Positions 27,204-33,992 of a stretch of 64,000 nucleotides of DNA are shown here, piece after piece. Made by a program: the position numbers and the translations under genes. A model generated the notes under the pieces. It saw only the letters and a list, made by a program, of their open reading frames with translations, ran no database searches and was not told the DNA's origin. Position 1 is the stretch's first letter. The number at the start of each line of letters is the position of its first letter. This stretch comes from Isoetes taiwanensis (Eukaryota > Streptophyta > Lycopodiopsida > Isoetales > Isoetaceae), in assembly GCA_021234155.1 (NCBI GenBank), contig JAJEKV010000038.1, positions 4,772,847-4,836,846 of the forward strand. The letters run 5' to 3'.

Positions 27204-28032
27204 TCATTCTCCATCTGCAACAAATGAAAATGAAAGATTAAACAAACGAAAAATTGAAAACAGAAAACAAATGAAAATGCATGTACCTTTAAGGACCGCC
27301 CTGAACTCCTCCAAGTCGGCTTCTTCTTCTTCTTCCTCTTCTTCTTCTTCCTCTTCGTCTTCTTCTTCTTTCTCAGACTCGTCCTCTTCTTCCGAGTCCC
27401 CTATCCAACCCCGCATATACTCCTGCGAATTCATTTCTGATTCCTCATTTTCTGATTCCTCATAGGAATCAGAAGATGAGGAATCGGAATCATTCCCCTC
27501 CTCAAACCGGGAGGCGATGAGGTGGGCGGGGAGAGGAGGCGGCCAGAGGGGGCGGGGGGAGGCAGCAGAGGCAGCAAGAATTTCCGGTAGAGGCGGGAAG
27601 AGTGGAGGGAACACCTCTTCGACGCTTAGTAACACACTAACCCCAACATTTGGTCCACGGCTGGAAACAACAGTAAAAACAAAAGACGGATTGTTTTTTT
27701 GAAGATTTGAAAAAAACCTACACGTAGTTATATGGAGGTGTGGTTTTTCAAGCATATGCTGTAGTTTTTCTTAGGGAGCCGTACTTTTTTTTTTAAGAAT
27801 GTATGGTTTCTTAAGGAGGTGTAGTTTCTTTTTTAAGGATGTGTTGTTTTCTCAGGCAGTATGATTTTTTGAAGGGATGTTTTTTTTAAGATGTTTTTTA
27901 ACATAGTGTTTTTTTGAGGTGTGGTTTTTTATCGTTTTCTAAGTTGTCCACATGCCATTACTGCCACAAAATGGCAGCATAAAAGAGTTGTAGGCATGCT
28001 TGACACACTCACTAGCATTTGACTTCATATAC

Positions 28033-28146
28033 ATGTGTGTGCGTGTGTGTGTGTGTGTGTGAGAGAGAGAGAGAGAGAGAGAGAGAGAGAGAGAGGAGAG
28101 AGAGAGAGAGAGAGAGAGAGAGAGAGAGAGAGAGAGAGAGAGAGAG
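28033..28146. repeat. GT/GA dinucleotide microsatellite
   Basis: About 28 bp of GT repeats pass directly into about 87 bp of GA repeats with one slip (GAGGAG). It lies between the subterminal region of E1 and the satellite array. E2 lacks it at the corresponding place near 61010, so it expanded or was lost after the copies separated. Open frames on the minus strand here are simple-sequence artefacts. Confidence 0.95.
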
Positions 28147-28267
28147 CTTGTAGAGTGTGAAACTTGAAGACATCCATCACTTGGAAACTTGTAGAAGACA
28201 CATTGATATGAAGAACCAAAGATAGACATTGGTTTGGCATCATATAGGCATTTCTTGAAGGACTCAA

Positions 28268-30035
28268 TCATGCCACACCCACTCTAACATATGCCACATG
28301 GGCTCCAACATGCCAAGGTGGCTTAAACATGCCACGTGGGCTCCAACATGCCACCTAGGCTCCAGTATGCCAAGGTGGGTCAAACATGCCAAGGTGGCTC
28401 AAACATGCCATATGGGCTCCAACATGCCACCTAGACTCCGACATGCCAAGGTGGCTCAAACATGCCACGTGGGCTCCAACATGCCACCTAGGCTGCAACA
28501 TGCCAAGGTGGCTCAAACATGTCATCTAGGCTCCAACATGCCACCTAGGCTCAAACATGCCAAGGTAGCTCAAACATGCCATGCGGGCTCCAACATGCCA
28601 CCTAGGCTCCAACAAGCCAAGGTGGCTCACAACATGCCACATAGGCTCCAACAGGCCAAGGTGGCTCAAATGTGCCACCTAAGCTCCAACATGCCACCTA
28701 GGCTCAAACATGCCAAGGTGGTTCAAACATGCCAAGGTGGCTCAAACATGCCATCTGGGGCTCCAACATGCCACCTAGGCTCAAAACATGCCAAGGTGGT
28801 CCAAGATGCCACCTAGGCTCCAACACACAAAGGTGGCTCAAACATGCCACCTAAGCTCAAACATGCCACGTGGGCTCCAACATGCCACCTTGGCTCCAAC
28901 ATGTCGAGGTTGGCTCAAACATGCCACCTAGGCTCAAACATGCCAAGGTGGCTCAAACATGCCACCTAGGCTCCAACATGCCACCAAGGCTCAAACATGC
29001 CACCTAGGCTCAAACATGCCAAGGTGGCTCAAACATCCAGCAGGCTCCAACATGCCACCTAGGCTCCAACATGCCAAGGTAGCTCAAACATGCCAGGCCG
29101 GGGCTCCAACATGCCAAGGTGGCTCACAACATGCCACCTAGGCTCCAACGTGCTACCTAGGCTTAAACATGCCAAGGTGGCTCAAACATGCCATCACGGG
29201 GCTCCAAGGCCACCTGGGCTCCAACATGCCAAGGTGGCTCAAACATGGCACGTGGGCTCCAATATGTCACCTAGGCTCCAACATGCCAAGGTGGCTCAAA
29301 CATGCCACTTGGGCTCTAATATGCCACCTAGGCTCAAACATGCCAAGATGGCTCAAACATGCCACGTGTGCTCTAACATGCCACCTAGGCTCCAACATGC
29401 CAAGGTGGCTCAAACATGCCACCTAGGCTCGAACATGCCACCTAGGCTCGAACATGCCACCTAGGCTCAAACATTCCAAGGTGGCTCAAACATGCCACAT
29501 GGTTTCCAACATGCCACCTAGGCTCCAACATGCCAAGGTGGCTCCAACATGCCACCTAGGCTCCAACATGCCACCTAGGCTCCAACATGCCAAGGTGGCT
29601 CAAACATGCCACACGTGGGCTCCAACATGCCACCTAGGCTCAAACATGCCACATAGGCTCCAAACATGCCACCTAGGCTCCAACATGCCAAGGTAGCACA
29701 AACATGCCACGTGTGCTCTAACATGCCACCTAGGCTCCAACATGCCAAGGTGGCTCAAACATGCCAAGGTGCTCAAACATGCCACCTAGGCTCGAACATG
29801 CCACCTAGGCTCAAACATTCCAAGGTGGCTCAAACATGCCACATGGTTTTCAACATGCCACCTAGGCTCCAACATGCCAAGGTGGCTCAAACATGCCACG
29901 TGGGCTCCAACATGCGACTTAGGCTCAAACATGCCACGTGGGCTCCAACATGCCACGTGGGCTCCAACATGCCAAGGTAGCACAAACATGCCAGGCGGGC
30001 TCCAACATGCCACCTAGGTTCCAACATGCCAAAGT
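28268..30035 (+). repeat. 19-bp satellite array inside E1 (about 90 units)
   Basis: The array repeats a 19-bp unit beginning AACATGCC. Three main versions occur: AACATGCCACCTAGGCTCC, AACATGCCAAGGTGGCTCA and AACATGCCACGTGGGCTCC. The variable cores (CCTAGG, AAGGTGG, CACGTGG) often follow one another in a 57-bp trimer. Because 57 is divisible by three and the CCTAGG version tends to avoid the stop-containing phase, long open frames appear (172, 124 and 104 codons). These are repeat artefacts. The same units in E2 prove it belongs to the element. The array ends at about 30035 in sequence shared with E2 (near 58390 and 60260). Confidence 0.95.
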
Positions 30036-32134: not shown

Positions 32135-32925
32135 GATTTGTGAAGCATATCCCATTAATGCTAAGATAAACGGCCAAGATTTTGACCTTGGCCTTATCAT
32201 CCTACTGGCCAAAGATCAACGGCCGAGATTGCGATCCCAGTCTTACCTTTCTATTGGCTGAGTCTGTATTCAGACTTCCCGCCTAAAAAGATCTGCGCCT
32301 AGAAAGGTCCCGCCTAAAAAGGTCTGCGCCTTCCCGCCTGCGCCAGTTTACCTCCGCTTTGTCTTCTGCGCGCCTCCGCTCTGGCTGCCTCCATTCCATC
32401 TTCCCGCCTGGGCCGCCTCCATTCCGTCTTCCTGTTGTCTCCATTCCGGCTGCCTCCATTCCGTCTTCCCATATGCTGCTGCTGTGGGTTACTTCACCAC
32501 AGAAATGCTGTTGCTGTTGCTGTTAAATCCAGCCATTTCACCACAGGTATGCTGTTGCTGTGAGATATGCTGATGTGGGTTAATAGGAATCCCGTTCCTG
32601 TAGCACGATCAACTGGGACAACTCAATGGGTAAGTATTCGGAGCCAAAAAAAAGGGAATCGTGGTTCGAAAATATATTGGCAAAACTGCGTAAGTTCTGA
32701 TATATTTGACTTGATATGGATTTTTAAGGCCTACGGCAGGCGATGACATGGGCAACCAGGCGATGATCTATGCAGACTAAGCTTCCGAAATTGACAATAT
32801 TGGGTTCAGAAGAACCAATTTACAATTGGCTCAGAGCCAAATGCTTCCGAAAGAAGTTTGCCTAAAAAGCAAATAGCTGGGATCAAACTTCTGCAGAGTT
32901 ATTCTAAGGTAGAAATAGAACACAT
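32135..32925. other. E1 interior: degenerate short repeats, no gene
   Basis: Two diverged copies of an approximately 49-bp unit (AACGGCCRAGATT...) lie at 32168-32265. Pyrimidine-rich CGCCTCC / CTCCATTCC repeats occupy 32280-32480, followed by GCTGTTGCTGTT at 32505-32560. No convincing coding sequence. Confidence 0.5.
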
Positions 32926-33204
32926 TCATTGTCTATCTTTATGAAATGCTCTGATATTTAGCCAAGTTTCAGTAACCATCTTTTTAAGTCTTTGGGCAGA
33001 TTGTTTTACACCATTATGCTTTTCACGCTTTTGGGAGTTTGCATCTATAGTTTCTAAGAAACTTGAGGTAATCTGAGAAATTTGACTGGTTATTGGGATA
33101 CCAGAAGTGAGCTGGTTAATAAGCCCAGCTGTAGCAGCAAGCATCTGCGGATCTACGGTAGCAGCACCTTGCAACAGAACTATACTTTCAGTATAAGACT
33201 TCAT
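32926..33204 (-). CDS. Unknown 92-residue open frame inside E1
   Basis: The minus-strand frame starts MKSYTESIVLLQGAATVDPQ, passes a Thr/Ser/Ile-rich stretch and ends with a basic helix-like segment (QRLKKMVTETWLNIRAFHKD). The composition is protein-like and unlike the surrounding simple sequence, so it could be a captured host exon or part of an element protein. No splice sites or family could be recognised. Confidence 0.3.
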   Translation of the reverse strand: MKSYTESIVLLQGAATVDPQMLAATAGLINQLTSGIPITSQISQITSSFLETIDANSQKREKHNGVKQSAQRLKKMVTETWLNIRAFHKDRQ

Positions 33205-33992
33205 CCTGTACTATCATCAGTTTCCATAGTTATAACATTGCAAATTTATTGCTGAATACATTCAAATATATTGCAGAAGTAATTGTTTGAGATTGTAAAG
33301 TTTGATTTATGATTTGAAAATAAGATCATAGTGTGGATTTGAAAATAAGATCATACTTTTTGTATACTTTGAAATTCAAATTTGAATATATACTCATGTA
33401 TGCAAAAATTCCTTTGTTTACTATTGAAATGTAATTCTTTTTCTTAATGACAACCGAAAACAATGCTGTTCTTAAGTTTCTTATATTTCTTATTTTGTTT
33501 TAGTTCAACACATTGTTTCTTTAAAACTATACTAGAAACAATATGTGTAATTGTATTAAAAAAACAACAGTGGTTGCATTAATTGAAGGAAAACTATGCT
33601 AAAGAATACAAAGACCATGTTGTTTATAGGTGAATACCACACTTAAAAACCATGCTGTTTTTAGTGAAAACTACACGTTTTTCTCTAAACCACACATAGA
33701 GTTTACACGTTGTTTTTCTCTAAAAACCACGATGAAAACTACGCATAAAAACTATGCGTTGTTTTTTTCTAGAAACTACGCATAAAAACTACACATCTTT
33801 TATATGTAAAAAACAACACTAAAAAACTACGCGTTTTTTCTAGCATTTTCGGAACATTACTATGGGTGGTGTTTAAGTGTTGTTTTTTTGCAAAAAAGAC
33901 AGCAAAAAACTACCCATAGAGCAGATTTTGGGGTTAGTGTGTAAGCGCCTCTTCGAGGTGACCTCCAGCTCCTCTGATCTTGCTCGCTTCAT

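Follow-up and report, generated by a model that had tools for sequence, protein, structure and literature searches.

The PIF/Harbinger transposons produce a 3-bp target duplication that is restricted to TWA. Several plant transposons carry accessory genes, as is the case for VANC of the VANDAL elements and TNPA of En/Spm. In PMC10741241, the CACTA superfamily is described with a 3-bp target-site duplication, and the Sola elements as duplicating 4 bp and being mostly 2-9 kb long. Sola elements, among them Sola1 of Physcomitrella, are not common in flowering plants. Here, we describe a locus in the lycophyte Isoetes taiwanensis. The window, that is, the whole stretch of 64,000 nucleotides that was analyzed (assembly GCA_021234155.1, contig JAJEKV010000038.1, positions 4,772,847 to 4,836,846), contains a 6309-bp element, E1, that very probably is a non-autonomous CACTA transposon nested in the acidic-protein gene of a multi-copy transposon, which we term H1. 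The locus is a nested transposon insertion of an ordinary kind, and it has a clean empty site. This empty site establishes where the members of a large family of CACTA type end in a lycophyte genome.

Termini and empty site of E1

E1 occupies positions 27633..33941 and is delimited by inverted ends of a variant form (CACACTAACCCCAA), by a 3-bp duplication and by the empty site. The inverted ends match exactly over 14 bp, with longer arms of 29 nt that are 83% identical. The target-site duplication TAA is found at 27630..27632 on the left and at 33942..33944 on the right. When E1 and one TAA are removed, the minus strand reads ..CGC TTA CTA AGC.. in a single frame. The 16 codons at 33992-33945 (ATG AAG ... 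AGG CGC) thereby join position 27629 (CTA AGC ...) in phase via one TTA, and the joined frame stays open to a stop codon that ends at 27204, the closest in-frame stop upstream being at 34109. The initial annotation had described these coordinates, the termini, the duplication and the in-phase codons, and all of this was borne out at the locus. It had also taken the restored frame as strong independent proof of the insertion, and here we come to a different view. The coding sequence upstream of E1 comprises 48 bases only, and when flanks from the window (both strands, every seventh base) were placed before the downstream frame, 6074/17716 sampled positions (34%) gave an in-frame ATG before any stop. 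Because one in three sampled flanks does so, restored phase alone is poor proof, and frame restoration as the sole proof of insertion was rejected.

The decisive evidence for the insertion of E1 is comparative and comes from uninterrupted copies, not from frame phase. A search of the genome assembly (1,658,258,908 bases, 1110 contigs) with the restored protein gave at least 162 tblastn matches, of which the best full-length ones, window excluded, reach up to 93% identity. The 19 best other copies (L010-L028), which were chosen by similarity to the joined protein, all align continuously across the position of E1 and are gapless over the 27 bases printed on each side of it. A second set was chosen, regardless of frame, by a 460-base stretch of upstream DNA; it holds 40 matches including the window, from 40 of 426 candidates scored, and the 39 others were counted. 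Here, 29 of the 39 copies have a listed protein match that spans the E1 site, four match the downstream part only, with a spacing too short to hold a large insert, and six are without a protein match among the matches listed. Since other copies run uninterrupted through its site, E1 is a real insertion. The initial annotation had made its case depend on relatives continuing from the 33945 side into the 27629 side, and among paralogous copies this continuity was found in 19 of 19. The same comparison bears on the idea that chance or an assembly error produced the in-frame continuity. The 34% of sampled flanks with an in-frame ATG speak for it, but all 19 copies are contiguous at the nucleotide level, which rules out coincidence of frame continuity, and the duplication and the inverted ends lie at the exact junction. 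We regard this explanation as having a negligible chance of being correct.

The interrupted gene is part of the transposon H1

The gene that was cut by E1 sits inside H1, a multi-copy DNA transposon, whatever its ultimate origin. H1 lies on the minus strand at 23582..37552 and measures 7659 bp without E1. Its limits are homology limits, drawn from a comparison with ten other copies, each taken with flanks of about 10 kb: homology ends within 7 bp of 37552 in seven of the ten and near 23582 in nine. Homologous pieces are 83-98% identical, except one of 288 bp that reaches 99.7%. H1 has inverted repeats GGGTG(C/T)AAAATCG as its ends (GGGTG...CACCC), and the target duplication CAAT flanks them at 23578..23581 and 37553..37556. 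As counted by eye, a 4-bp duplication is present in six of the seven H1 copies with both ends read, the CAAT of the window included. Because the flanking homology reaches fixed GGGTG ends with 4-bp duplications, at this locus as well, we assign the interrupted gene to H1, and the earlier view of an ordinary host gene disrupted by E1 was not supported. What looks like a disrupted host gene at one locus can prove to be a transposon gene after a genome-wide search.

It might be argued that E1 hit a single- or low-copy host gene and that the H1-like copies are later captures of this gene by a transposon. Purifying selection on the acidic frame, and the fact that this frame is intact oftener than the rest of H1, would agree with such a history. 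However, the homology on both sides extends to the GGGTG...CACCC ends with their 4-bp duplications, CAAT at this locus, and we therefore consider a captured host gene very unlikely.

Judged by its 4-bp duplications, H1 resembles Sola, and its length of 7.7 kb falls within the range of 2-9 kb. Sola elements encode a transposase of the DDD type, whereas that of H1 is unclassified; the extra NIF-like phosphatase, RING-like and acidic-protein genes of H1 may also set it apart from Sola. A Cys-rich frame on the minus strand at 35539..36459, taken from the open-frame list, is broken and unclassified, without a match in Pfam (E up to 1) or in NCBIfam (E up to 0.1); it may be transposase-like, judging solely by its motifs and its place. 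No single unbroken fragment seemed to span the transposase core of H1. On the plus strand, 25869..26225 is a putative part of a NIF/FCP1-like phosphatase gene and corresponds to fragments of the copies on C1026 and C974 that match PF03031 above the cut-off; a match to a UBLCP1 structure was obtained as well (E 8e-05). A further plus-strand frame at 24429..25118 has a RING-like Cys/His cluster with a weak zf-RING_16 match (E 0.063, below the cut-off). All three of these H1 frames are broken to some degree.

Classification of the E1 family

Judging by the duplications of its family and by the canonical CACTA ends of sister copies, E1 fits best among the non-autonomous CACTA-type elements, with a terminus of variant form. 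The window holds a second member of the family, E2, in inverted orientation at 53256..61419 with the target duplication TAT. One end of E2 is 87% identical to E1 over 418 aligned bases, and the two elements have 19/57-bp tandem arrays in common, besides their ends and subterminal sequence. Of 17 additional end pairs outside the window, 15 have an exact 3-bp duplication, or 17 of 19 together with E1 (TAA) and E2 (TAT); the script would have accepted CAC and GTG anywhere close to the ends, but each of the 17 matched where the termini were expected. The pairs on C1081 and C1100 both have the duplication GTA and an identical flank. The duplications vary in sequence and include GAT, TTC, ACC, TAC, ATC, CAA, TAG and ATT among the 17 pairs. 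When 18 left ends of sister copies were read, 14 were CACTAC or CACTAT and four were CACACTCACCCC or nearly so, a share that is not representative since the 18 were taken from 40 listed, many of them because the alignment stopped short of the end. The left ends of the copies with CACTAC or CACTAT are 84-98% identical to E1. One copy, 98% identical to E1 over the left 387 bp, combines the left end CACTAC with the right end CACACT and has the duplication ATA.

The E1 family shares with non-autonomous CACTA (En/Spm) elements the varied 3-bp duplications, short inverted ends, CACTA(C) sisters, a size of several kb and many copies. The inverted repeats of E1 have the short length typical of CACTA elements (mostly <50 bp). 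E1 differs from CACTA elements in the ends CACACT, in the 19/57-bp tandem arrays and in that no transposase was recognized in the frames scanned. The CACTA transposase domain PF02992, that of TNPD/Transposase_21, occurs in the same genome with at least 167 matches (from the best 150 of 2311 candidates scored), and the nearest match to an E end that was seen by eye, C1036:715937, lies outside the end pair 727502-734411.

Several observations weigh against a CACTA transposon nested in H1. The termini of E1 itself are CACACT and not the CACTA or CACTG of the superfamily, and no transposase was recognized in the five selected frames of E1 and E2 that were scanned (2 + 3 frames). By eye, no PF02992 match was found inside the compared E end pairs among the matches listed. 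The end pairs on C284 and C941 (2/19), as well as an extra pair on C279, are without a duplication, and on the side of H1 the copy on C1026, one of the seven, shows no 4-bp duplication. An alternative would be that E1 belongs to another superfamily with 3-bp duplications, such as PIF/Harbinger. The two duplications in the window, TAA and TAT, begin with TA and come near to TWA, and the start of E1 is not CACTA. The duplications across the 17 end pairs, however, are varied and follow no TWA rule, and therefore argue against PIF/Harbinger; moreover, close sister copies end in CACTAC. A placement of E1 outside the CACTA superfamily is highly improbable in our view.

For the CACTA transposon nested in H1, the following order of events can be proposed. 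H1 with its acidic-protein gene would have been in place first. E1 would then have entered exon 1 of the acidic gene in a cut-and-paste event with TAA as the staggered 3-bp cut site, presumably moved by a CACTA transposase acting in trans. The insertion split the frame after codon 17 and should inactivate the acidic protein of this H1 copy; in other H1 copies of the genome the acidic gene is uninterrupted.

E1 has some internal features of its own. A foldback with 43-nt arms at 31047-31156 adjoins a stretch at 31158-32135 with inverted CGAAATGTTAGGG/GGGTAGGCCACATTTC ends, and these features at 31047-32135 are probably nested small transposons. A 94-aa open frame on the minus strand at 32929-33210 contains MKSYTESIVLLQGAATVDPQ and has no Pfam match; it might be a captured exon.

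The acidic-protein gene of H1

The interrupted gene probably has two exons and would then encode 134 residues that end in DGE, a model built from conserved splice signals. All its parts lie on the minus strand. The first 16 codons of exon 1 (MKRARSEELEVTSKRR) are at 33945..33992 and are contiguous with the rest of the exon, at 27287..27632, in other copies. A probable intron of 72 nt (GTACATG...TTGCAG) at 27215..27286 is followed by a probable exon 2 at 27204..27214 that would supply the C-terminus DGE and the stop codon. The intron is suggested by conservation of the acceptor and by stops in a divergent subfamily, and exon 2 by the predicted splice product of one divergent copy, L112. Counted by eye, the acceptor TTGCAG is present in 13 of 16 copies. 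In the window copy the unspliced frame is open too. In the three copies of the divergent subfamily the unspliced frame stops 9 codons (two copies) or 13 codons past the same donor, and L112 would, by eye, splice to DGEADE. This subfamily (L110-L112; G000:C1035:10988473, C1059:6757408 and C1028:15849380) has the head and splice donor of the main family and, in two of the three copies, the GWIG motif; L110 and L111 have open frames of 126 aa.

The ratio of nonsynonymous to synonymous substitution (dN/dS) of the acidic exon is 0.26 over 15 copies; read in either of the alternative frames, it gives 1.06 and 1.84. L027, which has three stops, is excluded from this set, as are L025, L026, L028 and the window copy, in which the script did not recognize the end motif. 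The 300 nt upstream of the gene, read as codons, give 0.68. By a second method, with ten copies and the window, the acidic exon has a dN/dS of 0.30 versus 0.45-0.62 for four other H1 frames. Because the ratio is 0.26 in this frame and 1.06 and 1.84 in the others, we conclude that the acidic protein is real and was constrained while H1 multiplied. In this respect the initial annotation was right: E1 cut a genuine reading frame whose small product is basic at its head and acidic at its tail, as the 19 of 19 continuous copies and the low dN/dS indicate. The conserved parts are MKR..EE.EV.SKRRLL..EEVFPP.FPPLP and, before the Glu/Asp tail, a GWIG motif. The window copy is without the four residues immediately before GWIG, which relatives retain, and hence its protein may have been impaired regardless of E1. 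In another H1 copy (G000:C1043:11048527-11050069), which is among the closest by upstream DNA (98%), about 550 bp interrupt the acidic frame at residue 66, in what looks like a further insertion.

The acidic protein matched no Pfam family above the cut-off and no NCBIfam entry, and no relatives were found in viral contigs (genome_contigs, phages and plasmids were not searched). Like the products of VANC and TNPA, it answers to the description of a small conserved non-transposase protein of a DNA transposon. The lasting lead from this locus is the acidic protein of H1, which is conserved among copies.

Intactness and divergence of the acidic exon

In pairwise comparisons of five H1 copies, frameshifting indels amount to 1.1/kb in the acidic exon versus 8-28/kb in 15 other 500-bp bins. 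The bin with most of the exon has 2.6/kb and the 300 bases upstream have 6.4/kb. This low count first emerged in copies chosen because they resemble the joined protein. Among the 39 unselected copies, 17 have an intact acidic exon, compared to an expected 0.6-14% under a rough model with 5-13 frameshifts per kb per copy; the excess intactness is reduced but still present. In L029-L048 together with the window copy (23582-37552), the frame of the acidic exon is kept oftener than the transposase-like, phosphatase and RING-like frames. Uneven assembly polishing may contribute to the excess of small indels that H1 has outside the acidic gene. Of the private 1-bp deletions, 21/92 lie in runs of three or more, with no clear homopolymer pattern.

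Silent divergence is also raised in the acidic exon, with a proportion of synonymous differences (pS) of 0.156 versus 0.057-0.081 in four other H1 frames (2-3x higher). Misaligned Glu codons could add to this value, but the first 34 codons of the exon also show a silent divergence of 0.17 in the 15-copy set. The raised silent divergence would fit gene exchange between H1 lineages, and the excess intactness would fit an acidic protein that acts in cis or is selected separately. One may speculate that the acidic protein, a transposon protein for which no known family was found, acts in cis, for example on chromatin or against silencing, and lets otherwise dead H1 copies spread, but we rate this as unlikely. 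We are similarly doubtful of the idea that selection keeps the acidic protein even where the transposase-like, phosphatase and zinc-finger frames are broken. If such a cis-acting role were true, the E1 insertion would be a natural knock-out of the acidic protein in one copy.

Other features of the window

The 64-kb window has no Rfam match above gathering scores and no tRNA. Outside H1 and the E elements, an LRR (leucine-rich repeat) receptor-kinase-like gene was recognized by eye on the plus strand at 44306-47567. It consists of two overlapping frames, 44306-45178 and 45126-47567, and this overlap suggests a frameshift or an intron.

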